A stretch of DNA of 64,000 nt from assembly GCA_018806915.1 (NCBI GenBank), contig JAGKQI010000008.1:62001-126000 (forward strand), read 5' to 3'. Of the stretch, positions 3,222-64,000 are shown one piece after another. Positions within the stretch are counted from its first letter, which is position 1. Each line of letters begins with the position of its first letter. The DNA comes from Phytophthora colocasiae. Lineage: Eukaryota; Oomycota; Peronosporomycetes; Peronosporales; Peronosporaceae. The notes under the pieces were generated by a model. It had not been told where the DNA came from and made no database searches. It was given only the letters and a program-made list of their open reading frames with translations. A program made the position numbers and the translations under genes.

Positions 3222-3223
3222 GA

Positions 3224-18289: not shown

Positions 18290-18701
18290 TGCAGCGGGGC
18301 TGCGTAGGTGTGCACGGCACAGAGGAAGTTGGGTTGACTCGTAGAGTCCTGCTTGCAAGGCACTAGCCTTCGGTTCTATACAAGAACCAAGTAGTCCACT
18401 AAATACGGGACTCTCACAATCAGTGTCCCTATAATAAAGGAACTAACACTAATTATGTAAAATGCAAACTGATTTTTATTTATTTTATTGCCCTAATCCT
18501 GAATGTAACGGATTTAGTATCTAACATACTAAATCCTAATCAAATGTAATGTGTGGCTCTGAGCTAACAGCCAGCAACTGGCTACATGTGTGACGTGTGA
18601 GAAACACTATGTGTTGTACACGGATCTGTGACTTGTGACCTGGATGGTGTATACCACACCTATTGTAGCCAAGGCGCGCAGCGCCGTGTAACCCCGTTAC
18701 A
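18290..18701 (-). repeat. 3' LTR of Gypsy A
   Basis: 412 bp, ends TGCAGCGGGG and CCCCGTTACA on the plus strand. By eye it is identical to 25762-26173. Confidence 0.95.
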
Positions 18702-18713: not shown

Positions 18714-18806
18714 AAACCGTGGATACGGAGTATCTACAACTGTAGACATAACTGCCTTGTCAAGGCCTGTCACCGATAAAAGAAATCTCTCAACGAGAGT
18801 GCGCGG

Positions 18807-20630
18807 GTGCGCTGGCTCAACGAGCACATTCTTCAATTCTCCCCAGCGAGCCAACCGCTCCTGAGGTGTCCAGTGACCAGGCGTCTACGCCCCAGCGCCT
18901 CAGCGCTTTCCGGTCTGAGCCCTCGGCTCCTCTCACGCTCTCCGATTCGGAGTATTTCGCGGCGTCTCGCCTTCGCTACGGAGCGATGTTCAAGGCCAGC
19001 CCGACGTCAAGTGGTAGCGGTGGCTCACCCTTCGAGTACACGACAGCGTCGCCGACGCGCGACCCACGTCGCTCTCCTACAGAGGAAGGCGAGGTCGAAG
19101 TGGACTACGAGGAGTCCGAACAGGGCGATGCCCATGCGTCTCCTGCTCCTGCGAGCCCTCGGACGACCCGATCTGAGCTGCGCTCTCCACGCGATCCGCG
19201 TCGGTACTCAATTCCTCGGCAGCTGCGGCAGCCCAATCCGTTCCCGGAGGGACCTTCGAGCCTCGTGCTCAACGCGTTTGCGCAACGCACCACCGCTTCC
19301 TGCTCGCGATGAGCCAGAGTCACTCAAGGGAGTCGAAGACGCGATCACCAACCCTCTGGATGAGGCACAGGAGGCTTCCCTGAGCGGTGCTCCAGAGTCA
19401 CGTCGACCGGTCCAACGGGACATCGTGGGGACTTCGTCGCGGCGCGACTACGGCTTCGAGCCTCGCGACCCTGCCGAGCAGGTGAAGCAGTTGATGGCGC
19501 AGCCAAACCTGCATGGTTACGCCATAGGCAATCCTCCACGTACGGTGGCTGAGACTCAGCAGCGACAGGGGGCTCCATGAGCGTTTCCTGACCCCGCAGG
19601 TGTGCACACTCGCCGAGTATCGGCAACGCTTAGATAAGCAACGGCGACGGGAGTCTGTGCCTCAGATGAGGACTTATCCACTCCTGCTCCAAACCGGAGA
19701 GACCACCCGGGACTACATGGTCCATGTGGCCACCTGGGCCGAGGCTTCACGGAAGCTCGCGTCGTTTGACCGGCTCATGGAGAGCTGCGCCGAGGTGGAC
19801 GTCCGCCTCGCCCGAGGTCTACTCTTCCAGTACGCGAAGATACGCGTGCGGCCCGGCCGCTTTCCTCGTCACACGACGGCAGTGGCTCCCGCCTCTCAGG
19901 CCACTATCCCTGCTTCGCAGGATGCTCCCTTCAGTCTCCGAGGGAGACTCGCTGGCTGTGCCAGCCACGGACCAGAGCCTGAGCTCGGCTGCTAGTCCGT
20001 CAGCTTCTCACTAGTGGTGAAGCGGGTGTCGACCAGTGGTCGACCTCGAGCCCTTCGGGCGCCCCCGATCTTCGCGATCAAAAGCGTCCACGACGTCAGG
20101 GCAGTCCTGCCTCAGGGACCCTTCAAACTCCCACGAGTTTTGGGAATGAGGATATCCACGCCACTTCACCAGATACTGGTTTTGACTACGGTGGCGACGC
20201 CGCGCCCATCAGGCGCTCCACGTGGTAGTGGGGAGTCCCCTGCTCATCGAGCAACGGCGGAGGAGGCCGATTCGCTGCGGAACGCCGTACTCGATGAGTG
20301 TGACGAGCGCTATTTGTCGCATCGCGCCTGGTACCAACTCGATCACTCGATCGGTACTCTCCGGAGTCAGACTCAGTCCCTTCAAGGGGAACGTCGAGAG
20401 TGTTTGGCATTCGCATGCCCGTCTCGCTCATGACATGGAGGAGATTGAAAGCCGGATGGCTTGGCTCGAAGGTCCTCAGTCCCTGACTGCTCGCCTGCAC
20501 CAGCAGGAGCTTCCAGCTCGCTGAGTTGCGAGGTCAGGTGACGTTGCTGCTGCAGATGACGCAGCCTGGGCACGTGTCGTCGGTGCCAGCGCCTCCGCGC
20601 CTCACCCCGCGGGGTCCCGATATGGCTTAA
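18807..20630 (+). pseudogene. Antisense ORF of Gypsy A (frameshifted)
   Basis: Plus-strand coding remnant opposite the 3' end of pol. The best frame opens about 18.8 kb and runs to 19312 (SSDQASTPQRLSAFRSEPS; acidic EEGEVEVDYEESEQ), continues in other frames (19350-19578; 19600-19995 with YRQRLDKQRRRES and MESCAEVDVRLARG) and ends with a heptad-like tail (about 20430-20630) converging on pol. Layout and composition parallel the antisense ORF of B: acidic EEGE segment, central helical domain, C-terminal coiled coil. No convincing ATG is visible near 18.8 kb. It overlaps the antisense chromodomain coding of pol (20011-20250). Function unknown. Confidence 0.6.
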
Positions 20631-25704: not shown

Positions 25705-25748
25705 TCTCACAGAGAAACAGTCTTCAACTCAGGAGTTGGATTGACTAC

Positions 25749-25759
25749 GAGTGCTACCA
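25749..25759 (-). promoter_or_regulatory. Primer-binding site of Gypsy A
   Basis: Minus strand TGGTAGCACTC, two bases inside the 5' LTR, matching the A' site except for the last base. Confidence 0.65.
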
Positions 25760-25761
25760 GA

Positions 25762-39949: not shown

Positions 39950-41121
39950 TGTGGTGAAGTGGATTCAAATCAAGCCGGACAGGACGCAGAAAGACCACGA
40001 TGATGGGTGACGTGCGACAGTGGTGCTACGATAAGGACAGATCCCTGGAACTGGGTACCTACTCTAGGGCGGACCCTAAGTTAGGATCCACTTAGCCTGG
40101 CTGACTTAAGTTCGGATCCCACAGTCCTAAGTGCGGATCCTTCAGACCCAAGATCCTCGGATCCGGACGTCGAGATCCAGATTCAAGATCCTCGGCTCCC
40201 GAAGCCGGATCCCCAAGATCCGAGATCCTCGGATCCTAAAGCCGGATCCCCAAGATCCAAGATCCAGAGATCCAGATTCAAGTTCCTCGGATCCTGAAGC
40301 CGTAACCTTAAGATCCAAGATCCAGAGATCCAGATCCAAGATCCTCGGATCCAGATGCCGGATCCCGAAGCTAGATCCTTGGATCCAAACCCGGATCCTC
40401 AAGTTTTATGACATCAACGTGGTGAAGCAGTTGGAGGAGAGCCAGCATGATCTTAGATAGAGATTTGCGATGGGAAAGATAGGGTACAGGATGAGAAACT
40501 GGATAGCCATAAATCAGAGAGTCGAATTTACCTTCTAGTGCGCAAGTGGTTTTCTTCAGGACCTAAGACAAGGGAAGAGGATAGTGTATTGGCCTCCCCT
40601 TAGTCTTCCTGCAAGTTTCTTCGCATACCTAGATACAGCTAAGACCGGATCCCCGATTTGGCCGGCTTACCTTACGCTAGTGAAGACCCCGGATCCAACG
40701 GTGTTGATTGCTTAACCGTAGGATCCTTCGATATATCCACACCCTCAAGACCAACCGCTACAGGAGGCGGCAAGCAAGACAGTAAAGGAAAGGAAAAGGA
40801 GCCCCACACCCACCAAGGCAACCCCGGATCCAAGGATCCACAAGATCTTCGAGTCCAAGACCAAGATCCCCCCAACCAAGACCTGTGTGCAGGAATACCC
40901 ACGCAAGTCCAACCTCCCAAGTCCCCGCCAAGGACGTTCAAGCCCTCACGCCTGTGTACACTCTCCCGTTCCTGAGAGAGCAGATCCCGCCCACTGACGG
41001 GTACACAAGGTGAGCCTCAGCAACCCCACGGTTATCGGAGTACCCCCTCCGTTAGTCAGTGTCTGGGCGCCGTGTGTGAACGTTGGATCCCTGCTCATTC
41101 CAGCGGATCCACTACACCACA
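39950..41121 (+). repeat. 5' LTR of Gypsy D
   Basis: 1172 bp from TGTGGTGAAGTGGAT to ATCCACTACACCACA. The ends form an inverted repeat matching at 14 of 15 positions. It contains the GATCC repeat at 40140-40410. Confidence 0.92.
40140..40410 (+). repeat. GATCC-rich short tandem repeat in the D 5' LTR
   Basis: A degenerate repeat of units such as AGATCC, CGGATCC and CAAGATCCNGAGATCC. The same block is at 54135-54410 in the 3' LTR and, expanded, at 61858-62345 in E. The copies differ in number and order of units. Confidence 0.85.
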
Positions 41122-43433
41122 ATGGTGCGCGTGCCCGGATCTTTTGGGGACGGCGGATATCACCGTGAGTCCGAAGAGACTGTACAAGTGAAAGAAGAAC
41201 CGGGAGAAGAAGTGCCGACGGTCGTTGGATCGCCGTCAGCACCACTGAACGCTAGATCCACGGATCGGCGGAGCCCTGGGAGGAGCTCTGCCGACAGGAA
41301 GGAGGCAAGTCTGGCAACAGACTCGGAAGAAAAACCTCCCCCTCCTCCCCAGGTCCCTTCGGGGACCCCCGCGGATTGGAACGCGAGTTCTGATCCGCCG
41401 GGTGGGGACTCATCAGCGAAAGCTGTTGGATCTTCATCCACCACCACCACCCCCGCGCAGATCTCAGGTGGTAAAACGTCGAAGAAGAAGACGAAGACTG
41501 CGCGGAAGAAGCTGAGGGCACCAGGATCTGATGTCGACGAGAAGCCGGTGGTGAAATTGGAGTGGTCGTCGACCTAGCTGGAGGCTTCGTATCGCCAGAT
41601 CGCGCTCGAGTACTTCCTCCGGGAAGACCCTGTGGTGAGGATCCTACAACCCCAGTTGGTTGGATCCCTCACCGGCCCGATCACGGCGCCGGCGCAGTCT
41701 ACGAACAGTCTAGACAGCGCCTTGGACCTCCTCCGCCTGTTAGAGGAAGCTGGTTTCGCGGCAGGAGCTTTCGATGGGGACTCACTTTTCCGCTTGGACC
41801 ACGACAGGATCCGTATCGCAGCGGCTTCATTATTCAACCGACTGAAGCCCCTCGTTGGTGAACGACGAGCGACCCGGGATCTGGTGTCCAAGCTAGCGCA
41901 GTCCCCAAAGTATCAGACTGGATCCTCTCGATACGCCTCGGCGGAGTCTGAGGCAGGATCCGACAGTCCGTCTGAACTCCGACGTATGGCGCTCGGGCCT
42001 ACAGGTGCTGCGATGCTGGCAGTCCGTATGCCGACGGATGTCCCGGAGATCAAGCCAGCCCGAACGCGGAACACCTCGCGTAATCAGCCCCGTGCCATGG
42101 ATCCGCCGCATGCATCCACCAACAGGCTGCAAACCTATTTCCAATCGGCCATGGACAAATTCTTGAAGGAACAGCAGATGACTGCGGTTCCACGCACTGC
42201 GGATCCTGCGTACCGGGATGTCGAGATGGAGTCAGTAGGATCACACCCTGAGAACTGGGAGTATGACCCTGACGACCTTGACGGATTAGCTCCACGGCGT
42301 ACGGCGACGACTACCGCTGTATCCGTTACGGCAGGATCCAGCACGATTCAACGGATCCGGATCTCTGCAATATCGGACTTGAAGGAGTTCACGGGCAAGG
42401 ATCACGACGAGGAACGAGCAAGATCATGGATTACTAAGGTCAAGTCAGCCTTCACGAGAGATCAAGCATCGGACGAAGAAAAATGCCTTACCTTCGGAGA
42501 TCTGCTCACTGGTCTAGCGCGAAACTGGTACAGACAACTCAGTCGATTCACAAGGCTGAAGTGGAGTGACCTGCTGAAGGCCTTCCAGACGCAGTACTGT
42601 GGCCTCGGAGTCTCGGTGGCGTGGCAATACTACCACGCTCGCAAAAGATCCGATGAGTCGCCACTGGAATACTTGTATCGCTTGAACGTAGCAGGTCTCC
42701 GTGCGAGGGTGATGATCAAGGATGGAGATGCCAAAGCCCGCCGCGAGCACGTCGAACACTTCATCGAAACGCTCGGGGATGCGGATCTGGCAGACCAATT
42801 GACATTACTCCGACTTGCGGACGCGGATCAACTCGAAGACGTGCTGCGGGCCAGAGATCGCGCGAGATCCAGACAGAAGAAGCCGTCGTCAGGGGTCCAG
42901 CAAGTTCCGGCCGAAGACCACGACGGCCCCGCAGCCAACCGGTCCAACGCGTGCGATCCGTTCCATGCAAGTTGTAGAATCGGAGGGATCCGACTCCGAG
43001 GACTCCGGATCCGATGGTGAACTTCGCAGAGCATACGTAGCAGCCTCGAGTGAGCGACCGACTACCTCGACGACAGCCGGATCAACAGAGGCCAAGACAG
43101 GAACTTCGGATCCTAAGAAGATCCGGATCCAGCCCAAACCAGCTCGGATCCAACGCCACAAGATCGTCGACCACGTTTCTCCAACGAAGGCAGCGCTGCT
43201 CGCACTGCGGATCCAGGAAACATTCGGATCTTGGCTGCTGGAAGCGCCTTACCTGCCAGAAGTGCGGCAAGAAGGGTCATCCGTCGGATCGCTGTTTCTT
43301 CGTGTGTCGCGGCTGCGGAGAACTTCACGATCACGGCAAATGCCAGATGGAGGAGTTCTACAACCTCATCCGGCAGTGGTTCGATCCAAGTAAGCACATG
43401 CTTCCGGAAGCTGCCGAGAAGATGTTAAACTAG
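41122..43433 (+). pseudogene. gag: gag of Gypsy D
   Basis: About 770 codons from the ATG abutting the LTR to TAG at 43431-43433. The N-terminus MVRVPGSFGDGGYHRES matches C. A basic patch (KTSKKKTKTARKKLR), then LTGPITAPAQ and LLEEAGFAAGAFDGDS, an acidic ENWEYDPDDLDG, and the capsid core (RARSWITKVKSAF, NWYRQLSR, QTQYCGLGVSVAWQYYHARK) follow. The knuckles are CSHCGSRKHSDLGC and CQKCGKKGHPSDRC plus CRGCGELHDHGKC. Two or three frameshifts (about 41575, 42880-42900 and 43050-43190) interrupt it. Its role is as for gag of C. Confidence 0.87.
41123..41138 (+). promoter_or_regulatory. Primer-binding site of D, overlapping the gag start
   Basis: TGGTGCGCGTGCCCGG begins one base after the LTR. With the preceding A it forms the gag ATG. 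Confidence 0.65.
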
Positions 43434-43472
43434 GACGCTCGCCGGGTTTGAATCCGGTACGAGACGAGCGTT
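43424..43472 (+). promoter_or_regulatory. -1 ribosomal frameshift signal of D
   Basis: GTTAAAC at 43424-43430, then gag TAG, then a hairpin with outer arms 43434-43441 and 43465-43472 and inner 7-bp stem within 43442-43457 (CCGGGTT pairing with AATCCGG, including one G-U). It opens into pol in the -1 frame (LGRSPGLNPVRDERS). Confidence 0.8.
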
Positions 43473-46400
43473 CAACGTCTTACATCTATGCATATGTGAA
43501 CAAGAAAGCCATGGATCGAGTTAGCAACAAGCAAACGGATCTATTGGATAATACATGTGAACTTCATGGGAAACGTACGGCTAGAGTTGCAAGCTTCCGC
43601 TCTACAGACGATGAGTACCAGAGATCCGAGATCGCTATGTCCTTGGATCTCATGCCTGGAGAGTCACGCGGGTACTGGAAATACCATGTCCCCAGCAAAC
43701 ACTTCAAGCAGGCCAAGGCAACGTGCAAGATCAACAATGCCAAGTCCACCGTGCTTCTTGACTCGGGATCCGAGGTGTCGATTATCGATGCCGACTTTGC
43801 TCGTAAGGTTGGATCCCAGATTGATACTAGTCAAACACAAGAATGCATCGGCATTGGTGAGCAGCTGTATATTGCAGCAGGCAAAACAAGGATCAAAGTT
43901 ACCTTGGCTGGGTACTTGGTATACTTCTGCGATGTCTGGGTCGGCGAGGATCTTCCGCCCGACTGCGACGCGATTCTTGGCATGGACTTCATGGTACCGG
44001 CCGGGATCCGACTCGACCTGGGCGATGGATCCGTATGCCTGCACGACGAGATCCGTGTGCGACTCCATGGACGGCGGCAGATCTTCAGCGGCCGGGCTCG
44101 CCCGCTACTCCTCCAAGAAGGCATACGGCTGGAACCCGGCGAGATCTTCGAGCACCCGGACCGGATCCACCTCAAGGAGTATGAGAAGCTGTGGTTACGG
44201 AGAGGAAAGTAATGGGTACCGACGTTAGTACAAGGCCCAGGCAAGATCCGCTATCTACAACTTACCAACATTGGTGAGAAGGCGATCTCTCTCAACCACA
44301 ACGAAGAGATCGGCATGTGGCTGGCCGGGGATCACGTTCCCCGCACTCCAGGCTTCATCTCCGTCGGATCCAGGCGCTACCACGAATGGCAGAACCTCGC
44401 CATGAGCGCCACGACGGAGATCCCGCCGCCACCGCGTCCGAAGGAGCCATGGGAGCTTGAGCCGGCGGTGGATCGCCCGAAGTACACCGAGCCGAAGGGG
44501 ATCTTGAAGCGCCCTGTCCACACCGCTGTCGTGTCGCGCTGCCCCGGCTCGCCACCTACGTCGGACCGGATCCTTGAAGGAACGGCCGACTGGCGAGACA
44601 GGATCCAGTCAGGTGGATCCGATCCGTCAACGGCTAAGCTCCAAGCTCACCGCCGTGTCCGATTTGAGCCAGAGGCCACAAAGGACGTTGCGCCAGCCTC
44701 ATTGGACCAAGGGGCGTCCTCACACGCCCGTATCCGAGATCCACAGGCTCAAGGATCCTCTGGATCCTCTTCAGCTGGTCTGATTGAAGATCCGGCAACG
44801 TGTACTGTCTCTGGCCAGAGACTGGCCGCCACCGTTGAGGATCGGCAGCATGTCCGTGCGACGGGCGACGACCATCACTCCGACAAATCAGTCGGAGATG
44901 ACGTTTTGACGTGCCCTGGGGCGAATATGCATGCCCCACTGCCAAAGTTGGTATGGGCATGCAGCGCGATGCAAGGCGCGTCTAACGAGCCATCACACGC
45001 CTCCAACGGAGCTCTAGAAGCCGAAGGGGCCATGTCAACACGCCTCCTTGAAGATCCGGAGGGCTGCCCTGTCTCTGCACAGAGCCGGGACAATGATGCC
45101 GAAGGGTCGCCCCATAATCATGGGACAGGTGACCATCATTCAGATGGCACAGTCGGATCCAAGGTTTTGGGGTGCCCCGGAGCTCACAGGAATGCCCAGG
45201 AACTCGGAGCGCTACCATTATACGCGCCCGATCAAGACCTTTCAAATGAGGTGCCTCACGCCCCCCAACTCCGTCTACAAGCAAAGTCGGATCCTTACCT
45301 GACACAGCTTGAAGATCGGTGTCGCACATGCGACATGGGTCAAGGACGGGGCAGGTCCGAACAGTCGTCTGATTCCGCACTTAGTGGGGATCTGAGCTCC
45401 TCATATTCACACAAATATGAGCGAGCGGCGGAGATGGCCTGCAGGAAGGGCGCCGCCGATTGCGAGGCACCCAGGGCGATCTACGCGTGTACCAAGGGTG
45501 CTACAGATGCGCCTCGCCGAGGCGAAGACGATGGTGTGCGCCAAGGCAAGATTGAAGACTCAAGGGCGCCAGGGGATCCGGGTCAAGGCGTGACGGCACA
45601 AGAAGATCTGGACCAAGGGACGACGACGTGCGTGGAAGCGACGAAGACCTCAGAGGACGATCCGAGAGCTGGATGTGGTGCGCCGAAGAGTGATCCTGCT
45701 GTTGGAACCGGTTTGGAAGCGGGAGTGAAGTTGGAAGACTTACCAAAGCGAGGTGCCGCTCAGGTATCGGATCCAGCCACGAGGAAGCTGGATCCTGTGC
45801 ATCGCCTGACGTCCAGTGATCAGCCAGTAACTGGGATAAGTGGAGATCTGTTACTCGATCCAGGGTGTGGAGATCGTGAAGAAGTCTTCAGTCAGGGTCT
45901 CGAGGTTGGATCCCGACCGGATCCCGTGGCTGAGTCCCAGCCGGATCTCGAGGTTGGTGCCCAGCCGGATCCTGGATCCTTTGCCCGGTCACACGCTACA
46001 GTCGGATCATCGGATCTTGTCGTGAAATCTCGGCCGGATCCCAGTAACGCGGAAGATCACGTCGACGATGGAGTTTTTGTCCACGAGAATGGTGGATCCT
46101 ACGCGGAGGATCTTGAGAAGGAGATGGCGGTGCTACCAGAAGTTGTGACGGCAACGGTCGAAGTGAAGATCGAGGATCTCCAAGTGGGGGATCCAGCCTC
46201 CAACACACCTGAGGAGATCCGACGATTGGCGAACGAGATCTGGAAGTACAAGCACTTGTTGATTGGGAAGGGTAATGCCTTACCACCTCCTGCCGTAGGC
46301 GCGATCTGCGATATTGATGTGGAGACGCCAAAGCCAATTGCCCAGCGAGTGCGTAAAGTGGCACCGCAGTATCGCGAGAAGCTTTCGGATCTGATCAAAG

Positions 46401-49400
46401 GATTGTTGCAAGCGAAGATCATCCAAGTCTCAACGTCACCATGGGCCTCGCCAATTGTCGTGATCATCAAGAAGAATGGCGTTGACATCAGGCTCTGCAT
46501 CGACTACAGATTGGTGAATAGCCTGACGAGGTTGATGGTATATCCTATGCCTCTCATCAACGATCTACTGGAGGATCTCGACGCCGTGTTATGGTACTGT
46601 TCTCTCGATATGGCTAGTGGTTTTTGGGTTGTCTCCATGACGGATCGCGCAAGGGCCATCTCGGCATTTATCACACCGTTTGGATTGTTTGAGTGGAACC
46701 GGATGCCGTTTGGTCTCAAGAATGCCCCGCAGATCTACCAGCGTTTATTGGACAACGCACTCTATGGATTCCTACGGATCCCGCTACGGCCGGATCCGGA
46801 TCCGCGTTGGATCTTTTCCGAGATGGGATCCCAGAGATGAACGGTGAACAGTCTGTGCTGGGACGAAGATCGTATATTGATGACATCTTAGTGACCGCTG
46901 GATCCTGGGATCACCTGTGTGAACGAGTGCGTTTGCTGCTGGAAGCCTGTGACAAGTGGAACTTGTCGATCAGCGTGGCCAAGAGTTTCTGGGGTCTGAA
47001 GAAGGTCGATTACCTGGGACACCGAGTGTCTAGCGAAGGACTAGAGGCACATCCGAAGGACCGAGAAGCGCTGGTGGATCTTGCGTTCCCGAGATCGTTG
47101 CGCGCTATGCAATCTTTCCTGGGTAGCCTAAACTACTACGCTCGATTCATCGAGGACATGGCGGTCTACGCGTCGGTACTCTACGAACTGAGGGGGGTCG
47201 ACTTCGCGGAGTTAAGGTCCAGCCGCAAGATCCTGCAGCCAACCGACTCTGTGATCAAGGATCCCGAGGACCCGTCGAGCCCGAGAGATCCGGATGAGAA
47301 GTGGATCCATGCTTCAGCCGCCTTCGAGGCCCTGAAGAGGAAGATCGCTATGACTCCTACGCTTCGGCATTTCGATCCCGACAAGCAACCGGTGGTGATT
47401 GTCTACGCCAGTGAATGGGCCATTTCAGCTTCCCTGACGCAGGATCACGATGGAATCTACATGCCGGTGATGTTCGTTAGCAGATCCCTGAAACCGAACG
47501 AAGTGAACTATGGGATCGTAGAGAAGGAGGTGCTGGCCTTGCTAAGGATCCTGGATCTCGGATATTCCATGTTGGTTGGACGACGGATCCGGGTCCTAAC
47601 CAGGCACTCTACCCTCCGGTGGTTGTTCCGTTCTACCGGACTACAATGAAGGTTGGGCCAATGGGCAGCGCTGTTATCGCCTTGGACCTTGGAGATCACG
47701 AAGTGTACGAAAGGGGAGGACGAGATCCTCGGATCCCTCGCCGCAAGTATCACCCCGAGATCCGAGGTGGATCAAGCTCTAGTGAACATCGCCCCGAGGA
47801 AAGAGCCACGCCGAGCGATCCAGATGCCAGTACCAACCGTAGGACCGGAGTGAAGAGTTGTGGGTGGTTAGTTTCGACGGATCCGCCAGGGTGAAACGTG
47901 GCGGTGGGTCCTTCAGCGCGATCGTCTGGAAGTTACCTGAATGGAGGGTGATTAAGGCCGCATCTCGATACGCAGAGAACCTGACAGTCAACGAAGCGGA
48001 GTACAACGGACTTCTATTATGTTTCGAGTTACTCGAGGATTTGGCTAAGGGGCGACTTGTTATCTGCGGAGATTCGAATCTGGTGATCCGCCAGATGCGC
48101 GGCGAGATCGACTGTAAAGCGCCGGCCCTGACGTTACTGAGACAGAAGGCGCTAATGCGGCTTCGGGAATGGCCGGATCACGACCTGCTACATGTGAAAC
48201 GAGCGTGGAACGCAAGCGCTGACAGCTTGGCCAGTGCAGCATTGCAACGAGAGAGCGGGACTACAATCGACCAAGGGGCGGATCGCGAGGATCTCGTCAC
48301 TTTGAATCGGTTGGATGAGATTCTGACATCGGGATCCGAGGATCCGACACCACGGATCAGTGCAGTTGCTACTCGAAGACAAGCTAGAGAGGGGCGACCC
48401 CGAGTACTCGACGAGGAGTCCGTACAACGGTTGAGGATCGACCGGATCCGACAAGCCCAGGACGAAGAGACATGGATCTTCAACCTGAAGTCGTTCCTGC
48501 GGGGACAGCTGACGGATCTGACTGCGGCTGAAGCCAAGACGTGCCGCCTGCTGGCAGACAACTTCGAGTTGGACGAGGATGAGCTGTTGTTCTATTGCGC
48601 ACCTTCACGAAGGGCCGAAGCCGATCGAGATGGATTGCTACGACTGGTTATACCTGAGACGCTTCAGGCCGACTTGTTGCACCACTATCACAACAGTCTA
48701 GAAGGAGGACATCAAGGGATCGGCCGTACGTATCAGAGGATCAAGGATCACTTCTAATGGAGAGGACTTTTCAAATCTGTACAGCGGTTTGTGGGAGAAT
48801 GCGTGGATGTGAGACAGGCAAGGGGCGACCCACCATTCGTGGTGTATCGCCAGGCAACATTCAAGCCACCTACCCGTTCCAAGTGATCGCCATGGATCAC
48901 ATACCCTCGCTACCACGATCCGAGAAAGGAAACACTGAACTCTTGGTATGGGTGGATCTCTTCACTGGTTATGTGATCGTCAATGCGAATAACTCGCGAA
49001 CGGCCCAGGCCATCGCGGAGTCCTATGAGATCTGTGTGTTTCGTCGTTTCGGCGCCAGCCAGGTGATCCGTCACGACCGAGAACCTGGGTTTATGTCCGA
49101 CTTCTTTCGTGCTTTCAACCGGATCCTAGGCCAGCGCCAGAGAGCCACTATGGCTTACCGACCACAGTCAAATGGCACGGCTGAGCGGATGGTGCAGACA
49201 ATTACCCGAGCGATCAAGATGTATGTCCAGGATCCCGACCAGCGCGATTGGGCCGAGTATGCCGACCGATTCACTTTCGCCGTGTCTACTGCGCAAGAGC
49301 GGACTAGGGCGACACTCCATCTCTACCTCGCACACGGTTGGGATCCCAAGACGACTCTGGAAGCGCTCTCCGTGGGGAATATCGGACGTCGAGATACAGA

Positions 49401-50068
49401 TCCACGACGCTGGAGGTATCGGATCCAGCGACACTACCAACTAGCCAGGGCTGAGGTGAATGACCGCCTGAAGCAGGCGATCTCGGATCGTGCCGACCGG
49501 CAGAACGAGACGGCGACGCAACACCCCATCGAGGCCGGATCCCAAGTGTGGCTGTTCTTAGACAGAGTGAAGGAGGGATACGCCAAGAAACTGGCTCACC
49601 TGTGGCATGGACCGTTCCGTGTGGCTGAAATGACGAACGAGTACGCGGTTCGATTGGAGATCGCCGGTACAGACTATCATTTGTTTCCGGTGGTGCACAT
49701 CTCCAAGTTGAAGCCAGTCAGGACATTCCCAGACCGACCGAAGACCCAGTTGACAGTGGACGAAGCGGATCGCTTAGACTTCGACGAAGCTTTGTTACCG
49801 GAGGACAGCTGGGATCGTGATCTGGAAGACGATGAGTTCGAAGTCGAGCGGATCGCGGACGTCCGGACAGGACGACCCACTCGATACGGCCGGATCCGAC
49901 GAGAGTTCCAAGTTTTCTGGAAGGGGTATGAGAATCCTGGACGAAGCGGATTTGAACTGCGGCGCGTTACTGCATGAATTCCTCCAAGAACGAAGCAAAA
50001 AGAACCGGTTCCAAGCGATGCAGTCGCACGAAGAAGAAGTAGGCGACGGGGTGGATCTTCACTGGTGA
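43431..50068 (+). pseudogene. pol: pol of Gypsy D: PR, long spacer, RT, RNase H, second RNase H, integrase, chromodomain
   Basis: The protease has an intact D-S-G (43760-43768) and DAILGMDFM. An in-frame TAA at 44210-44212 sits in the conserved RRGK-WVPT junction. A spacer of about 500 codons (44500-46100) has an internal ~75-residue duplication. RT (46160-47130) has LCIDYRLVN, MPFGLKNAPQIYQRLLDN and YIDD (46873-46884), with a frameshift near 46800. RNase H is at 47290-47650, shifted near 47650. The second RNase H (47860-48260) shows FDGSARVKRGGG, NEAEYNG, CGDSNLV and NASADSLA. The integrase finger (HHYHNS, then H and CETGKG; one base lost near 48810; TAA at 48755) precedes AMDHIPS, RHDREPG and NGTAERM. 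The chromodomain (about 49830-49990, FEVERIADV, FQVFWKGYEN) is shifted near 49935. Not functional as sequenced. Confidence 0.88.
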
Positions 50069-50719: not shown

Positions 50720-53700
50720 TTACAAAGTTCTGGCCCTGGCAGCTTCAGCATCGAAATCAGGTAGCGATCGGACGAACTTCATGGAGAGTCGACTAGTGCC
50801 AAGGCTGGGGTGAGAGGATCCAGACCGGTAGTGAGTACGCCAAGGATCTTGGCGATCACAATCTTCGAGGGCAGCTAAGAGGCTCCGTGGAAGATCCGCT
50901 CCAGTGTCGACAGCCTCAGCCCCAGGATACCAAGTGACGTCTTCCGTCGGTAAGGGAAGTGGACGAAGTGTGGAGTCTAACCACAGATCCAAGTCGCAAC
51001 ACCCGGTCAGGCGCATCCTCTCGAAGATCTTGCTCTGAAGCTTGCGGTAGTTGCTCGGGCATGGGACCCGCGATTCTTTCGGCGGTGATAGAAGCTGGTG
51101 AACCAATTGTCCGCCTTCCGAAGCTCCATAGAGATGGGGAACGAGTGCGTGCATTCCCAGATCGCTTGCAGGTTGGCAGCCTCGAATGCGTCATACCAGC
51201 TCAGGATCTCCGCGAGATGGGGTGACAAGCCGGCTTGAAAGGTGTAAGGAGGCGGAGACTGGGACCTGAGACCCTTCCATGGCTCCGTCGCGTACAACTC
51301 GGTAATTTGCGCCTTGGAGATTAGATCTGGAGCGTAGCTGGACGGATCCATAGCACCACGACCGACACGAAGGGGAAACAGCCACCCTGGGCGATAACAA
51401 GCGGTCAGGCCACCGGCAGAGAGTGTTTGCAGACTCAGAAGGCTGACTTGGTCTGCGATCCAAGGGGCCACCTCTTCGGGAGACATCTCGCGTGGATCCC
51501 GAACAGCCGGAACGAACTCTTCTAATGGGCCGTACGCCTCGAACTGAAGCCCAACAATTCTTTCGAGAGAATCCGTCTGGTGAACCTCGGGGGACGTAGA
51601 ACGTGAAGGGCTGGATGCAACACTGGAGTGGGTAGTGGGGGCGTCTCGGATCTCAATGGGAGCAGACGCCGACCCGTCCCCCGACGAACGCCGACGCAGT
51701 TCCGACCGAGAGCGCGACATGACGGCCTTCAACTGTTCTTCATCAAATTCCTCCGACTCGCTGCCCGAGCCGGATCCTGGGTCGTCTCCCGCACCGGATC
51801 CAGCTGGACCTCCCTCACCGGAACCCTGTGATCCCTTAGGGGGTTTGGCAGCGGTAGCGGAAGACTTCGCGGGAGCTGTCGGATCCGGGATCTCTGAGAG
51901 TGCACTCGGCAGGGGTGCCTCAGCAGACTTGTCCGGAGATGGAACACGCTTGGGATCCGCCGAGTCTTGATCCTCCCCCGGTCGCTCTTGCGCCACGTCC
52001 CCGAAGTCGAGATCCGGATTGTCAGTCGCATCACCTGCTGTTTTGGAAACGGGAACAGGCGCAGGCTTGGACACCGCGGCAGAAGGATCTGCAGGATCGG
52101 CCTGACGCGATATCTTGTGCGGCGGCTCTTCTGTCGGGACAGAAGTTTCGCGTCGACGACGCTTGGCGGAAGAACCTTCTTGGGAAGTAGAAGACTCAGA
52201 CTGCGCGCTTGGGGCATTCGAGGAACTGCGCATAGCCATAGAGGCGATCGAGGCCAAATTACGAAGGGCCGACGTACGCTCGTCAATTACACTGCGATGC
52301 TCTTCTTCCAGGGCTAGGTGTTCCTGCTCGAGCGCGTCATACTTCGTTTTGAGACCTTGATGGTCGTGGCGAAGACGCTTGAGGTCTTCTTCGCTGGTCA
52401 CTGCCCGTGCCAACGACGCAGCCAGCTGCTCCGATTCACTCTTCAAGCGCTGGATCTCCATCCCCTTGGTGCCGAATAACTTGATCGCTTCCCCGGCGAA
52501 GATCTGCCTGGCCTGATCGCGTTCGAGGGTTATTGTGGAGATCTTCTGCGTGGCGCTTGTCCAGCTCTTGCATCGCTGCTGTGGACGCCCGGGCAGCCTC
52601 GTCGCGCTCGAGGCGGATCCGATCCAGATCCGCACGTATCTTCCTCTGTTCTGACGACTGGTTCCGGATCCGATCGAGCTCACGTTCGGCCTTCTCTCTG
52701 GCTTGGTCCGCCCGATCGCGTTGACGTTTTACTTTCGGCAGATCATCTTCGGCCCTCTGGAGACTCTTCTCGGCGCTCTGACGCTTGGATACGTTATTCT
52801 CAGACCGCCTCTGTTGATGCTCGATCTCTTCACGGGCGTTGAGGTTCTCTTGCGTCAGACGCGCCAGGTTTTCGCTGGCCCGGTCGAGTTTCTGGACAGT
52901 ATGCGTATGAACCCGATGGAGTTCCCCACGTCGACGTTCTGATTTGGCGAGAAGACTCTCCAGCTCATTGACCCTCTCGTTCCGAACATGAAGATCCAGT
53001 TTGAGCGACTCGACAGTCTTGACGAGATTTTGATTGGGGAGCTGCTTGAGCGATTCACGTAGCTGGTCACGGTGGGCCCGAAGATCTTCAATCTTGCGTG
53101 CTTGTTGGTCGCAACGGATAGCTGACTCCGCGAGCTGGACACTGGTGCGATTTTTGCTCGAGTAAGGCCGCATCTCGCGCGGTCTCCGCGTCTTTCAACT
53201 TCTCCTCCAATTCCGTTGAACGCTCTAACAGTTCCGAAGATTCTTTCACGCTGATGCTCAGAGTTCTTGAGCCAACCGGTACCACCACGGATGGATCCTC
53301 CCGCCGAGACGTCTTCCCAGCAATCTGCCGCTCGAGTCCGACTGCATAGTCCTGTAAGACAGCATAGGCTTCTGCTGAAGAGACCTCCAGATCCGAGTAT
53401 TGGGCCTTGAGGACGTCGAGCTCACGCAAGTGATCCTTGAGCCGATCCAGATCTTGCACCGCTTCCGCTTCCTTTTGCTTCGCCAGCCGGAGAGCAGCTT
53501 GAGAAACATTATACCGACGCTGCGCGAAGTCAATGAACGCTTGAGCAAGGTCCAGACGAGGCTGCAACAGACCATGGAGTTCTTTCATTGTGTCGCCGCG
53601 CCGAAGTGAGATCCCGGAGCACTTGTTGGTAGCTGGCCTGCATCTCAGCGTATCCATCGGAGAGAGACTGGAGGGAAGTAACGGCAGCATACACAGGATC

Positions 53701-53847
53701 CAGATCCGGGACCGTTGGAGTCGCGGCTACAGCGGGATCGGAAGGAGCGTGGTCACAATGGGGACATGGAGGTTGAGCCGCAGAGCGATCCTGACCGAAG
53801 AACACGGTGGTGTACGCGGAGGACCAGTCGTCGGCAGGCCGATCCAT
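50720..53847 (-). pseudogene. Antisense coiled-coil ORF of Gypsy D (frameshifted)
   Basis: A gene of about 1040 codons on the strand opposite pol. It starts at an ATG at 53845-53847 (MDRPADDWSSAYTTVFFGQD), 103 bases from the 3' LTR. A short Cys/His-containing start (PPCPHCDH) is followed, in another frame from MKELHG (about 53590), by about 350 residues of heptad-rich coiled coil (LEEKLKDAE, VNELESLLAKSERR), then a Ser/Pro/acidic linker with a basic patch (AKRRRRE) that could be a nuclear signal. The C-terminal domain (PGWLFPLR, ATEPWKG, WECTHSFPI, TWYPG, LEDCDRQDPWR) is shared with the antisense protein of C. Indels near 53150-53290, 52540 and 51050 break it; E has the same segment unbroken. 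Function unknown. Confidence 0.75.
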
Positions 53848-53950
53848 TTTGCAGAGGTCGCGATTTGAGGAAATGACGAGCCAAATTGGAATTTTGTATG
53901 GGAACGGCGTGATGCCGTTTGTGCGGCAACAACCTCGTCCCAGGGGCGAT

Positions 53951-55131
53951 TGTAGTGAAGTGGATTCAAATCAAGCCGGACAGGACGCAGAACGACCACG
54001 ATGATGGGTGACGTGCGACAGTGGTGCTACGATAAGGACAGATCCCTGGAACTGGGTACCTATTCTAGGGCGGACCCTAAGTTAGGATCCACTTAGCCTG
54101 GCTGACCTAAGTTCGGATCCCACAGTCCTAAGTGCGGATCCTTCAGACCCAAGATCCTCGGATCCGGACGTCGAGATCCAGATTCAAGATCCTCGGCTCC
54201 TGATCCAGATGCCGAGATCCAGATCCAAGATCCGGAGATCCAGATCCAAGATCCTGATGCCAGATGCCAGATCCTCGGATCCTGAAGCCGGATCCCCAAG
54301 ATCCAAGATCCAGAGATCCAGATCCAAGATCCAGAGATCCAGATCCCGAGATCCCGAAGCCGGATCCTCGGATCCCGAAGCTAGATCCTTGGATCCAAAC
54401 CCGGATCCTCAAGGTTTATGACATCAACGTGGTGAAGCAGTTGGAGGAGAGCCAGCATGATCTAAGATAGAGATTTGCGATGGGAAAGATAGGGTACAGG
54501 ATGAGAAACTGGATAGCCATAAATCAGAGAATCGAATTTACTTTCTAGTGCGCATGTGGTTTTCTTCAGGACTCAAGACAAGGGAAGAGGATAGTGTATT
54601 GGCCTCCCCTTAGTCTTCCTGCAAGTTTCTTCGCATACCTAGCTACAGCTAAGACCGGATCCCCGATTTGGCCGGCTTACCTTACGCTAGTGAAGACCCC
54701 GGATCCAACGGTGTTCATTGCTTAACCGTAGAATCCTTCGATATCTCCACACCCTCAAGACCAACCGCTACAGGAGGCGGCAAGCAAGACAGTAAAGGAA
54801 AGGAAAAGGAGCCCCACACCCACCAAGGCAACCCCGGATCCAAGGATCCACAAGATCTTCGAGTCCAAGACCAAGATCCCCCCAACCAAGACCTGTGTGC
54901 AGGAATACCCACGCAAGTCCAACCTCCCAAGTCCCCGCCAAGGACGCTCAAGCCCTCACGCCTGTGTACATTCTCCCGTTCCTGAGAGAGCAAATCCCGC
55001 CCACTGACGGGTACACAAGGTGAGCCTCAGCAACCCCACGGTTATCGGAGTACCCCCTCCGTTAGTCAGTGTCTGGGCGCCGTGTGTGAACGTTGGATCC
55101 CTGCTCATTCCAGCGGATCCACTACACCACA
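53951..55131 (+). repeat. 3' LTR of Gypsy D
   Basis: 1181 bp, starting TGTAGTGAAGTGGAT (one change from the 5' LTR) and ending CCACTACACCACA, followed by GAAG. The GATCC block is at 54135-54410 with different unit order. The preceding CCCAGGGGCGAT may serve as the polypurine tract but is weak. Confidence 0.92.
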
Positions 55132-58914: not shown

Positions 58915-60426
58915 ATGGACTCGCCAACGCTCACGTCTCCGTCCGCTTCTGCGGACGCGCAAGCCTCTCCTGCTGCTTCTGCAGCAGGAACAACAACCTC
59001 AGCAGTGCCTACTAGCACTGCTGCTTCCAGCGGTTCGACAGAGAAGCTCTCTGTCACCGACTACCATGCTCTCCACAAGGAGAAGCATGCGAAGAAGACT
59101 TCTTCTTCGCTAGCAGGGATCAAACACCCTGTTGTTCCTCTCAAAGAACTCTTTGGAGAGGACTATGAAGACATCGTCGACTACTACGACGACGATGTCG
59201 AGGAGGGAGAGCTTGATGACAAGTCTCCCGCTCCCGTGTCTTCGTCCGAAGACACGTTCAACCCACTCGTGGGGTCTCGACGACCTCGTGTTGAGGTCTC
59301 GGACGCTTCAAGCTCGAAGCGTCCGCGCAGTGATGACGAAGCGTCCCCCATGTTGAGGGCGCTCACTGCTCCACGCACTGATCCTCCAGTGCGTGCACCA
59401 TGGCTGCCAACTGAGGCACAGATCCATGTGTGATCCGGTGCTAGCTCACCACCGAACCCGATACTGTTGTATGCATACAACAGTATCAACGACGACGACG
59501 TCGCCGCTGAGATTGTCTTTGAGTCCGAGACTCAAAGACGCGACTACTATATCGGGCTCTTCCATGAGCTCCGATACTATGCAGCGAAGAAGACTTCGCG
59601 CAAGAGCAAAGTGCCCGAGTGGCAGGCACTTTGTCAGTCGTGGAACGCCTTTGTTGAAAACTTCAACAAAGACCCGAAGGCATATCGCGAGCGCGTTGCT
59701 GCGGCTCGTGAACGCCTCCGTGATCAGTCCATGGAAGCGGGGATCCCATGTGCCATTCCCTTCGGCACACCCTGCCCGTGTTGCCAACCCTGGGCAACAC
59801 GTCTCTCAGAAAGTGATCTCCTGGGGTACACGGTCGTCCGTGTACCCGATCACATCAAGGAGCTTCGTGGTCGTCTTGAGCCACGCGGAGCTCCGAGTGC
59901 TGTGGCTGACCGCAGCGCTCCTCATGCAGGGCTTACCCCTGCAAGTTATGGTGGGCTTCGTAGGCCCTTACCGTTTCCGGAACGTCCTCCATCAGGACGT
60001 TCCGCGGCTCCCATGAATCTCGATGGGGAGGAAATCCTCTCCAACGAATACGAAAACGAACCCCTTGAGAGTTCGTTCTCTTATGAGCCACAATCCGCTC
60101 CACAATCCAGCGGATCGCTCCACGCGCGTCGCGCAACGGCGGCGGAGGGGGTGGGAACACTCCCTCCGCATGGTCAACGCTATGACCATGACAATCGTGC
60201 CCTGCACAATCGAGTTGCTGCGCTGGAGCAGACACAGAGCGCTGAGATAGCTGCTCTGAAGCAGGAGGTTCGTGTCCTCCGTGCTGAGGTCTGCGAGGCA
60301 GCTCAGACAGCCTCGAACCTCTCGTCCGGTCTTGGGACGAGAGTGAACCGGTTGATCGACCGTGTCGACGGTCTCGAGAAGGCCTTCCAGGCCTCTCGCA
60401 CTCCTCAGTCGGACTACCAACCCTAG
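58915..60426 (+). CDS. Antisense ORF of Gypsy B
   Basis: A 503-codon frame from the ATG at 58915 (MDSPTLTSPSASADAQ), 101 bases from the LTR, to TAG at 60424-60426, with a single in-frame TGA at 59431-59433. Parts: low-complexity Ala/Ser start, LKELFGEDYEDIVDYYDDDVEE acidic region, Ser-rich linker, a helical domain (SETQRRDYYIGLFHEL, WQALCQSWNAFVENF, ERVAAARERLRD) with PCPCCQPW, and a C-terminal coiled coil (HNRVAALEQTQSAEIAALK, RVNRLIDRVDGLEKAF). The helical domain (similar to Gag-like or structural proteins in feel only) matches the counterpart in A near 19600. Its last ~494 bases are antisense to the pol chromodomain (59933-60622). Unknown function; a structural or nucleic-acid-associated role is a guess. 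Confidence 0.75.
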
Positions 60427-61141
60427 GTAGTCCGTGCTGCACGTACGGCTTCAACCGCCCGACGTAGAAGGTCGGGTGGAGCCTCATGCTGGACGGTATG
60501 TCCAGCCGGTACGCGTTGCCGTGCCGTTCAAGTACTTTGAACGGCCCAATGAATCTTGGAGCAAGCTTGCTTGCTCCAAAGTCAGACACTGCATGTCTAG
60601 GTAGGTTTTGTGTAGCTAACAAAACTAATGAACCCTTTCGAATTCATTTGTGTTGCCTCTACCAACAGTATCAGCGTTCAGCTTCTGTCGATCGACAGAA
60701 GCTGCGATAGCATCTTGGACAAACCGTATGACGGCTTGTCTTCGCTGGACAAAGTCTAGCGCACCCGAGCTGAATCCTTTCAGCTTGTCGCCCTTGTCAG
60801 CAGCAGGCCCTGCCTGATCGCTATCATCTCTCATGTCTGTTCCCGGCACAGACATCGCGCGCTCGTCCCTGCTCGAACGAGACGTCGCACGCGTCACCGC
60901 AGCTGATAGTGTGCTGCTATCAGTTGCATTCTGCGGTTGTTCGGACGCAACCGTCGGAATTTTGCGAGTGCATACTTCATGGCAAGGAGCTCCTTGTCAT
61001 ACGGGATAGTTACGCTCAGCTGGCTTCAGCTGACGCGATTGATAGTAGACTACACGATCACGCCCTTCGTGATCGTGTTGCATCAATGCACATCCGATTG
61101 CAAAGTCGGATGCATCGCACACTACGTGGAATGGACGATCT
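59933..61141 (-). pseudogene. pol: pol of Gypsy B (RNase H start joined to integrase C-terminus and chromodomain)
   Basis: From 61141 leftwards: RNase H start (DRPFHVVCDASDFAIG, YYQSRQLKPAERNYPV, ELLAMKYALAKFR), then an abrupt switch near 60945 to the integrase tail. After a stop near 60625 comes LATQNLPRHAVSDFGASKL, the GPY/F-like RFIGPFKVLERHG and YVGRLKPYV. A Ser/Arg/Pro linker precedes a full chromodomain (IRWIVERIVAHK, FRIRWRGFPPHRDSWEP, VPETVRAYEAHHNL) ending at 59933. The RT-RNase H boundary to integrase catalytic core is lost, so this copy cannot act alone. The chromodomain frame is clean. Confidence 0.85.
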
Positions 61142-62534
61142 TGTGGTGTAGTGGATCCGCTGGAATGAGCAGGGATCCAACGTTCACACACGGCGCCCAG
61201 ACACTGACTAACGGAGGGGGTACTCCGATAACCGTGGGGTTGCTGAGGCTCACCTTGTGTACCCGTCAGTGGGCGGGATCTGCTCTCTCAAGAACGGGAG
61301 AGTGTACACAGGCGTGAGGGCTTGAACGTCCTTGGCGGGGACTTGGGAGGTTGGACGTGCGTGGGCATTCCTGCACACAGGTCCTGGTTGGGGGGGTCTT
61401 GGTCTTGGACTCGAAGATCTTGTGGATCCTTGGATCCGGGGTTGCCTTGGTGGGTGTGGGGCTCCTTTTCCTTTCCTTTACTGTCTTGCTTGCCGCCTCC
61501 TGTAGCGGTTGGTCTTGAGGGTGTTGATATATCAAAGGATCCTACGGTTAAGCAATCAACACCGTTGGATCCGGGGTCTTCACTAGCGTAAGGTAAGCCG
61601 GCCAAATCGGGGATCCGGTCTTAGCTGTATCTAGGTGTGCGAAGAAACTTGCAGGTAGACTAAGGGGAGGCCAATACACTATCCTCTTCCCTTGTCTTGA
61701 GTCCTGAGGAAATCCACTTGCGCACTAGAAGGTAAATTCGATTCTCTGATTTATGGCTATCCAGTTTCTCATCCTGTACCCTATCTTTCCCATCGCAAAT
61801 CTCTATCTAAGATCATGCTGGCTCTCCTCCAACTGCTTCACCATGTTGATGTCATAAACCTTGAGGATCCGGGTTTGGATCCGAGAAACTAGCTTCGGGA
61901 TCCGGCATCTGGATCCGAGGATCTTGGATCTTGGGGATCTGGCATCTGGATCCGAGGATCTTGGATCTGGATCTCTGGATCTTGGGGATCCGGCTTCAGG
62001 ATCCGAGGATCTTGGATCTGGATCTCTGGATCTGGATCGTGGGGATCCGGCTTCAGGATCCGAGGATCTTGGATCTGGATCTCTGGATCTGGATCTTGGA
62101 GATCCGACTTCAGGATCCGAGGATCTCGGATCTTGGGGATCCGGCTTCGGGAGCCGAGGATCTTGGATCCGGATCTCAGGATCTGGATCTTGGACATCCG
62201 ACTTCAGGATCCGAGGATCTCGGATCTTGGGGATCCGGCTTCGGGAGCCGAGGATCTTGGATCTGGATCTCGACGTCCGGATCCGAGGATCTTGGGTCTG
62301 AAGGATCCGCACTTAGGACCGCTAGATCCGCACTCAGTGCCGTGGGATCCGCACTTAGGACTGTGGGATCCGAACTTAGGTCAGCCAGGCCAAGTGGATC
62401 CTAACTTAGGTCCGCCCTAGAGTAGGTACCCAGTTCCAGGGATCTGTCCTTATCGTAGCACCACTGTCGCACGTCACCCATCATCGTGGTCGTTCTGCGT
62501 CCTGTCCGGCTTGATTTGAATCCACTTCACCACA
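61142..62534 (-). repeat. 3' LTR of Gypsy E
   Basis: 1393 bp; on the plus strand TGTGGTGTAGTGGAT to ATCCACTTCACCACA. It is about 210 bp longer than the LTRs of D, mainly because the GATCC repeat (61858-62345) is expanded. Confidence 0.9.
61858..62345 (-). repeat. Expanded GATCC repeat in the E LTR
   Basis: Tandem blocks of about 60 bases (for example starting GGGGATCCGGCTTCAGGATC) repeated with variation, inside which GATCC/GGATCT units recur every 6-13 bases. It corresponds to 40140-40410 of D. Confidence 0.85.
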
Positions 62535-62635: not shown

Positions 62636-62953
62636 ATGGATCGGCCTGCCGACGACTGTTCCTCCGCGTACACCACCGTGTTCTTCGGTCAGGATCGCTC
62701 TGCGTCTCAACCTCCATGTCCCCATTGTGACCACGCTCCTTCCGATCCCGCTGTAGCCGCGACTCCAACGGTCCCGGATCTGGATCCTGTGTATGCTGCC
62801 GTTACTTCCCTCCAGTCTCTCTCCGATGGATACGCTGAGATGCAGGCCAGCTACCAACAAGTGCTCCGGGATCTCACTTCGGCGCGGCGACACAATGAAA
62901 GAACTCCATGGTCTGTTGCAGCCTCGTCTGGACCTTGCTCAAGCGTTCATTGA
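62636..62953 (+). CDS. Antisense ORF of E, first frame
   Basis: A 105-codon frame from the ATG at 62636 (MDRPADDCSSAYTTVFFGQD), 101 bases from the LTR. It contains PPCPHCDHAP, a small Cys/His cluster, then LQSLSDGYAEMQASYQQVL. It overlaps the next frame by 59 bases in a +1 relation. The same overlap occurs in D (53530-53690), so it is either a shared frameshift, a recoding site or two genes. Confidence 0.7.
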   Translation: MDRPADDCSSAYTTVFFGQDRSASQPPCPHCDHAPSDPAVAATPTVPDLDPVYAAVTSLQSLSDGYAEMQASYQQVLRDLTSARRHNERTPWSVAASSGPCSSVH

Positions 62954-64000
62954 CTTCGCGCAGCGTCGGTATAATGTTTCTCAAGCTGCTCTCCGGCTGG
63001 CGAAGCAAAAGGAAGCGGAAGCGGTGCAAGATCTGGATCGGCTCAAGGATCACTTGCGTGAGCTCGACGTCCTCAAGGCCCAATACTCGGATCTAGAGGT
63101 CTCTTCAGCAGAAGCCTATGCTGTCTTACAGGACTATGCAGTCGGACTCGAGCGGCAGATTGCTGGGGAAGACGTCTCGGCGGAGGATCCATCCGTGGTA
63201 CGGTTGGCTCAAGAACTTGAGCATCAGCGTGAAGAATCTTCGGAACTGTTAGAGCGTTCAACGGAATTGGAGGAGAAGTTGAAAGACGCGGAGACCGCGC
63301 GAGATGCGGCCTTACTCGAGCAAAATCGCACCAGTGTCCAGCTCGCGGAGTCAGCTATCCGTTGCGACCAACAAGCACGCAAGATTGAAGATCTTCGGGC
63401 CCACCGTGACCAGCTACGTGAATCGCTCAAGCAGCTCCCCAATCAAAATCTCGTCAAGACTGTCGAGTCGCTCAAACTGGATCTTCATGTTCGGAACGAG
63501 AGGGTCAATGAGCTGGAGAGTCTTCTCGCCAAATCAGAACGTCGACGTGGGGAACTCCATCGGGTTCATACGCATACTGTCCAGAAACTCGACCGGGCCA
63601 GCGAAAACCTGGCGCGTCTGACGCAAGAGAACCTCAACGCCCGTGAAGAGATCGAGCATCAACAGAGGCGGTCTGAGAATAACGTATCCAAGCGTCAGAG
63701 CGCCGAGAAGAGTCTCCAGAGGGCCGAAGATGATCTGCCGAAAGTAAAACGTCAACGCGATCGGGCGGACCAAGCCAGAGAGAAGGCCGAACGTGAGCTC
63801 GATCGGATCCGGAACCAGTCGTCAGAACAGAGGAAGATACGTGCGGATCTGGATCGGATCCGCCTCGAGCGCGACGAGGCTGCCCGGGCGTCCACAGCAG
63901 CGATGCAAGAGCTGGACAAGGCCACGCAGAAGATCTCCACAATAACCCTCGAACGCGATCAGGCCAGGCAGATCTTCGCCGGGAAGGATCAAGTTATTCG
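62895..64000 (+). CDS. Antisense ORF of E, coiled-coil frame (open to window edge)
   Basis: From the ATG at 62895 (MKELHGLLQPRLDLAQAFID) the frame is open for 368 codons to base 64000 with no stop. Almost the whole length is heptad-rich and charged (KQKEAEAVQDLDRLKDHLRE, LEEKLKDAETARDAALLEQ, AREKAERELDRIRNQSSEQR), so a long parallel coiled coil is expected. No membrane segment or enzyme motif is seen. In D the homologous region is broken by indels and continues into a linker and a C-terminal domain shared with C. The intact frame across more than 1.1 kb opposite pol argues for selection or very recent activity. Known family not recognised; superficial similarity to myosin-tail-like proteins is only compositional. 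Confidence 0.8.
   Translation, partial: MKELHGLLQPRLDLAQAFIDFAQRRYNVSQAALRLAKQKEAEAVQDLDRLKDHLRELDVLKAQYSDLEVSSAEAYAVLQDYAVGLERQIAGEDVSAEDPSVVRLAQELEHQREESSELLERSTELEEKLKDAETARDAALLEQNRTSVQLAESAIRCDQQARKIEDLRAHRDQLRESLKQLPNQNLVKTVESLKLDLHVRNERVNELESLLAKSERRRGELHRVHTHTVQKLDRASENLARLTQENLNAREEIEHQQRRSENNVSKRQSAEKSLQRAEDDLPKVKRQRDRADQAREKAERELDRIRNQSSEQRKIRADLDRIRLERDEAARASTAAMQELDKATQKISTITLERDQARQIFAGKDQVI

Follow-up and report, generated by a model that had tools for sequence, protein, structure and literature searches.

Antisense coding in five Gypsy copies

The window, which is the whole 64,000-nucleotide (64-kb) stretch of the Phytophthora colocasiae contig that was analysed, contains five Gypsy copies, here called A to E. 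Element D is bounded by a 5' LTR (39950..41121, plus strand) and a 3' LTR (53951..55131, plus strand), which start with TGTGGTG (as in the 5' LTR) or TGTAGTG and end with CACCACA, and the target-site duplication GAAG stands on both sides of the insertion. The gag-pol of D (41578..50068, plus strand) contains frame breaks and covers RT, an RVT_3 RNase H, an integrase and a chromodomain-like tail. The antisense gene lies at 50720..53847 on the minus strand, from an ATG at 53847, which is 103 nt from the 3' LTR on its inner side, to a stop at 50720-50722. A family protein with an unbroken frame (L010, 1038 residues) aligned end to end on this gene in five successive frames (53847-53584, 53585-53154, 53155-52463, 52710-50953 and 51055-50723), and D is therefore a full-length but frame-broken copy. 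A domain profile placed the conserved C-terminal domain at approximately 50723..51548 (minus strand), where it spans two reading frames (51010-52728 and 50723-51190). The longest frame in this stretch was 573 codons, and the maximum in 200 dinucleotide shuffles was 373. The D antisense feature is real, and all antisense copies within the window are damaged. The coordinates that the first-pass annotation had given for antisense coding opposite gag-pol in A to E were exact when checked in the window.

The antisense genes of E and C belong to the same family as that of D. The E gene (62636..64000, plus strand) is cut by the window end and adjoins an LTR at 61142..62534 (minus strand). E and D are 94% identical in DNA over 1974 aligned bp, the LTR part included, and have in common a first frame break near codon 88; the earlier proposal that D and E share a coiled coil is borne out. 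The C gene (15928..17665, minus strand) starts 103 nt from the 3' LTR of its element (17769..18292, plus strand; 5' LTR at 6117-6643), and its longest frame of 568 codons exceeds the shuffle maximum of 372. Of the family protein, this copy keeps residues 1-29 and approximately 384-948; the part in between, most of the coiled coil, is deleted, which is why only the C-terminal part of C had looked shared. An unbroken C-family protein (L032) matched the L010 protein with 34% identity over 269 aa (E 7e-38) in the C-terminal domain, confirming that C and D have this domain in common. Among 77 scored genome matches to the C family, frames of approximately 1000-1020 codons were frequent. Furthermore, a search with the relative P0010 gave 52 matches that included C and D copies, and two loci taken from this list, L044 and L045, carry a third type of antisense gene with the C/D domain.

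The pol proteins of this family contain two RNase H domains. In the D-family locus L009, PF17917 (E 2.5e-20) and PF13456 (E 1.8e-6) were both found, and the C pol matched PF13456 (E 1.7e-13) and, at E 7e-4, below the cut-off of that family, PF17917. A chromodomain was scored in C (E 6.9e-7) and in L044 (E 6.8e-6), and none was found at E<=0.01 in the L009 pol or the D fragment. The pol of A and B, which ends in a chromodomain (scored in L039 and L037), is of another chromodomain type, which fits the division of the five copies into two lineages. Two repeat features were also observed around D. Short-period GGATCC / GATCTTGGATC repeats occur in the D spacer (50272-50622), the D LTR (54135-54420) and the E LTR (61860-62320), and a tandem array of approximately 8 units of 1650 bp, Copia-like by eye, lies to the left of the D insertion (26900-40050).

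In A, the frame-broken antisense gene extends over 18752..20630 on the plus strand (18807-20630 in the first-pass annotation), next to the 3' LTR of A (18289..18701, minus strand; 5' LTR at 25761-26173). Its longest frame, 257 codons, lies within the range of the shuffles (maximum 374), and the A frame is made credible by a frame of 679 codons in other copies (L039 and L040), where it starts inside the LTR and has no ATG within the first 132 codons. The B antisense frame (58915..60426, plus strand) is full length with one in-frame stop; its longest frame is 330 codons against a shuffle maximum of 308, and a better copy (L037) has 552 codons. The end of the B pol with its chromodomain (59933..60643, minus strand; scored in L037) overlaps this frame by approximately 490 bp, and in the better copies the antisense frame reaches into the pol end on the opposite strand by about 614 bp in A and about 488 bp in B. 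A position between pol and the 3' LTR, which had been claimed for all copies, therefore applies to C and D and only in part to A and B. In both A and B the antisense frame extends over the pol end and has a heptad-rich tail. The claim that they share a helical domain and tail was not upheld: a B profile found nothing significant in A, and the profile-profile probability was 2.3%, a weak test with a single sequence on the A side. Nor did the C/D profile find anything significant in A or B. Instead of one conserved gene in all five copies, there is one family in C, D and E, and the genes of A and B are without detectable homology to each other or to the C/D profile.

When L037 was compared with five other copies over the B overlap (42 distinct changes), 7 of the 42 altered both proteins, against a chance expectation of 46%, and 13 of the 20 changes that altered pol were silent in the antisense frame, against 37%. 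These small numbers point to coding on both strands in the B overlap. The B protein had at least 605 relatives (8000 scored), and those named to species among the 120 listed (P0013-P0132) are Phytophthora hypothetical proteins. Two further observations were made on the A family. The LTRs of A are identical (413/413) though its gag-pol and antisense frames are broken. Recent copying of an already dead element would explain this, as would gene conversion or assembly indel errors; the last, if it were the cause, would bear on the frame breaks of D and E too. Positions 1-3634 of the window, 97% identical to 22534-26173, are a second fragment of this family.

Frame length and selection across the family

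In the genome searched (92.5 Mb, 105 contigs), the E protein matched at least 136 stretches (101 scored of 242 candidates). Twenty family loci of 10 kb each (L009-L028) were taken from the upper part of the list of antisense matches, and because they were chosen in this way they say nothing about the fraction of elements without the gene, nor can the share of broken copies be read from them. The integrase was on the other strand, tail-to-tail with the antisense gene, in all 20 loci, and an antisense frame opposite to gag-pol was also present in L044, L045, L037, L039 and L040. An unbroken antisense frame of 1090-1116 codons was found in 8 of the 20; six of these have in frame the family ATG, which lies approximately 100 nt from the inner end of the 3' LTR, giving proteins of 1031-1056 residues, and two (L018 and L026) are without it.

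The codon alignment comprised 12 of the 20 loci (eight unbroken and four partial, the eight broken ones being dropped), and all 66 pairs were computed. Across the deepest split between subfamilies, dN/dS was 0.14-0.18 by NG86 and higher, 0.26-0.37, by YN00. An excess of third-position changes was evident between L009 and L021, with 211, 162 and 462 differences at codon positions 1, 2 and 3, respectively. Seven pairs were also computed by region. In the five that span the deepest split, dN/dS was 0.11-0.13 in the N-terminal half (the coil), 0.34-0.44 in the linker and 0.07-0.10 in the C-terminal domain; in the other two it reached 0.20, 0.51 and 0.16, respectively. There was no sign of positive selection on the C-terminal domain in the pairs computed. 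Recent pairs, with dN/dS of 0.32-1.12, behaved as expected of copies decaying after insertion. For pol, nine of the codon-aligned loci gave 0.05-0.10 in most deep pairs. Over the same subfamily split, dS was 1.2-1.4 for the antisense gene and 0.13-0.49 for pol, and antisense dN also exceeded pol dN; the higher antisense dS may in part reflect exchange between elements.

These data bear on whether the frames could be compositional, the GC-rich complementary strand merely happening to be open. Such a reading would accommodate the window A copy, with its longest frame inside the shuffled range, and the recent pairs with dN/dS up to 1.12, but frames of approximately 1100 codons in the better copies stand against a longest frame of 362 codons among 200 dinucleotide-shuffled versions of the L010 gene, dN/dS between subfamilies is far below 1, the same domain is found in five named species, and in C and D no pol lies opposite the antisense gene. 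Unless the alignment is wrong, the selection test refutes chance, to which we give next to no credence. A second possibility is that the functional product is the antisense RNA and not a protein, for example in silencing or copy-number control, and antisense non-coding transcripts have indeed been described for other elements (PMC7264820); given that selection acts on codons and most strongly in the C-terminal domain, we consider an RNA product very unlikely. A selected protein-coding antisense gene is therefore strongly supported at the level of sequence, and it is almost certainly a real gene of the element.

Apparent exchange of the antisense gene between elements

For the 20 loci, trees of the antisense gene and of the integrase recovered the same main groups except for L012 and L013. 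These two are mosaics: L012 has an antisense gene from one D subfamily and an integrase from another, and L013 also shifts. The antisense gene is thus inherited mostly with its element, and some mosaics have different pol and antisense histories. A sharper break was observed between C and the third type of antisense gene, which was read in two elements only (L044 and L045). Between L044 and C, DNA identity is 92% over pol and up to approximately 100 bp past the pol stop, beyond which only patches of approximately 120 bp align at 70-71%; around the LTR edge a single 127-bp patch aligned, at 70%. At the protein level, their integrases are 96.6% identical over 447 residues (dS 0.27), whereas their antisense C-terminal domains are 52.7% identical over 281 residues with dS beyond saturation. 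Similarly, L045 and C are 92.5% identical in pol DNA and 52.9% identical in the antisense domain, and the antisense domains of L045 and L044 are 97.5% identical.

The antisense gene therefore seems to be an exchangeable cassette on a near-identical pol. Recombination between pol and the antisense stop is the simplest reading, and it would perhaps occur by template switching during reverse transcription. Because U3 and the antisense gene adjoin at the 3' end of the element RNA, they would tend to travel together. L012 fits such co-travel, but L022 and L027 do not, their LTR edge grouping with another subfamily than their antisense gene.

Elements with one pol backbone can have completely different cassettes, and no known homologue ties the antisense gene to retroelements; these two points could also be taken to mean that a separate gene, a nested element or a captured host gene merely sits in these elements as a passenger. 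This appears highly improbable, since the gene lies inside the LTR pair and site duplication of D, adjoins the integrase in every one of the 20 loci and has trees mostly congruent with those of the integrase, and several diverged types hold the same place. A gene that belongs to the element is preferred here. Going further, the antisense gene and the adjoining 3' LTR might form a swappable self-specificity cassette, in which the protein would recognise the LTR of its own element and thereby select the active copies; a newly acquired cassette would then escape the old control. Related phages may likewise differ only in their immunity region. The point just past the pol stop at which identity between C and L044 or L045 ends would fit such a cassette, as would the single 127-bp patch that aligned around the LTR edge, and the LTR edges of L022 and L027 fit it poorly; we regard the idea as speculative and rather improbable.

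The antisense protein and its possible role

In the D-family protein, the N-terminal half is rich in heptads and approximately 270 residues at the C-terminal end form a conserved domain; the protein also has a basic patch and a variable linker. Heptad windows cover 476 of 1038 residues (mean 113 and maximum 300 in shuffled sequences), and no transmembrane stretch is apparent in the 1038-residue protein. The C-terminal domain was also found in C, in L044 and L045 and in five named Phytophthora species, and 25 columns are invariant across 15 sequences; all species named among the listed relatives of the antisense proteins are Phytophthora. A Pfam scan of the L010 protein gave 0 families at E<=1, and none of the scanned family proteins of D, C, B and A showed a Pfam domain to which a function has been assigned. 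Weak matches to DUF724 (best E 7.7e-4), perhaps only an effect of the coiled coil, were seen in three of 15 relatives of the C/D protein. One structure model was of middling confidence (pLDDT 65, pTM 0.64), and no fold was identified from it.

Antisense ORFs near the 3' LTR, which the first-pass annotation mentioned for plants, are documented in the Gypsy elements Retand, RIRE2, Grande (gene23) and PvRetro13, where they lie between pol and the 3' LTR and where a nuclear or regulatory role has been proposed (PMC11963269; PMC7264820). The Grande antisense protein has been reported to be nuclear (PMC7264820), that of PvRetro13 to have an SMC domain (PMC11963269; PMC7264820), and the TRP28 domain of Retand has been reported as probably DNA-binding (PMC11963269). 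The genes described here are alike in being long ORFs antisense to gag-pol at this position. Unlike them, they reside in an oomycete host and encode proteins that are unrelated as far as compared, PF04195 (TRP28) being absent at E<=1 from the family proteins of D, C, B and A and from the 25 listed of the 39 families matched by the 15 C-terminal-domain sequences. Moreover, the A and B frames overlap the pol chromodomain, and cassettes are exchanged on a near-identical pol.

Taken together, a selected gene opposite gag-pol, a coiled coil, a basic patch and the plant cases lead us to propose, with a probability of roughly 0.72, that D, E and C carry a selected antisense gene of their own element that encodes a nuclear accessory protein acting on that element. 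A promoter located where the 3' LTR borders the interior of the element would drive an antisense mRNA, and the protein would enter the nucleus and multimerise via its coiled coil. Its C-terminal domain might then act on the DNA, RNA or integration complex of its own element or on target chromatin, and transcription or integration would be tuned, as has been proposed for the plant antisense ORFs. The nuclear accessory or regulatory role, taken as a separate part of this proposal, is argued by analogy and is tentative, at somewhat under even odds, and any exact target would be a guess.

The promoter side was inspected in several copies. According to Roy et al. 2013 (PMC3599244), the oomycete initiator reads YCAYTYY and is found most often within 50-100 nt of the start codon, and an antisense promoter in the retroviral 3' LTR is known (PMC7264820). 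A motif of this class lies at 53869..53876 (minus strand), approximately 29 nt before the D antisense ATG. It was found at -28 to -30 from the ATG in 10 of 10 D/E starts, even though the subfamilies have different bases in it. All six C starts have it at -69 and -13, L044 has it at -92 and -80 and L037 at -10; none was found before the window B start and two A starts, and 22% of shuffled 125-mers contain one by chance. Between subfamilies with a coding dS of approximately 1.2, 181 or 182 of 198 positions (91-92%) match in the stretch from -236 to -36; since the end of the LTR and the primer region for the second strand lie within this stretch, it need not be a promoter. The last 36 nt before the ATG are less alike (23/34).

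Two other roles for the protein were weighed. It might aid assembly, or entry of the pre-integration complex into the nucleus, and not control expression; the coiled coil and basic patch would suit such a particle or trafficking protein, and a nuclear-entry role of an accessory protein has been discussed for plant elements (PMC7264820), but the antisense gene would come from another transcript than Gag and no Gag or capsid similarity was found in Pfam, so that this role is unlikely, with a chance of perhaps one in five. It might also be a counter-defence factor that blocks host silencing of the element. Consistent with this are the exchange of cassettes and a fast divergence, in that both dS and dN of the antisense gene exceed the pol values over the same split. 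However, a dN/dS of 0.07-0.10 marks the C-terminal domain as conserved, and the pairs computed gave no indication of positive selection; a counter-defence factor is accordingly rated as improbable, somewhat below the particle role. A nuclear accessory protein that acts on the element encoding it remains the preferred reading.

The HTLV-1 protein HBZ has a leucine-rich coiled coil, a basic patch and a bZIP domain. It resembles the D-family protein in its coiled coil and basic patch and in being encoded by an antisense gene that adjoins the 3' LTR, and differs in that the predicted L010 protein is four times longer and has neither bZIP nor any other Pfam domain at E<=1. The mussel Steamer-like element MchSLE-1 (PMC10974842), likened here by description only, also has an antisense mRNA of an LTR element, in this case in an animal. 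Among oomycete elements, Chronos Ty3/Gypsy (PMC5348765) resembles the C/D-type pol in combining a Gypsy RNase H, an RVT_3-type RNase H and an integrase, and resembles C and L044, though not the L009 pol or the D fragment at E<=0.01, in its chromodomain; the 2017 main text on Chronos mentions no antisense gene and contains the word 'antisense' 0 times.

The first-pass annotation considered this set of genes undescribed. That judgement appears to hold for the antisense genes of oomycete retrotransposons, the chromodomain overlap and the cassette exchange, all apparently new in that no paper on them was found in the open-access literature (most subscription journals lie outside it), and does not hold for the layout, which is already well described in plant Gypsy elements. 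Long selected antisense genes in several oomycete families would place this layout in a distant kingdom with unrelated proteins, and the oomycete elements that carry them already share the double RNase H and the chromodomain with plant elements. The exchange of cassettes on one pol backbone offers a ready comparison for finding the function of such genes, those of plants included. Finally, an antisense gene of a retrotransposon would explain many Phytophthora 'hypothetical protein' entries, those related to the B protein among them, and such entries may inflate gene counts.
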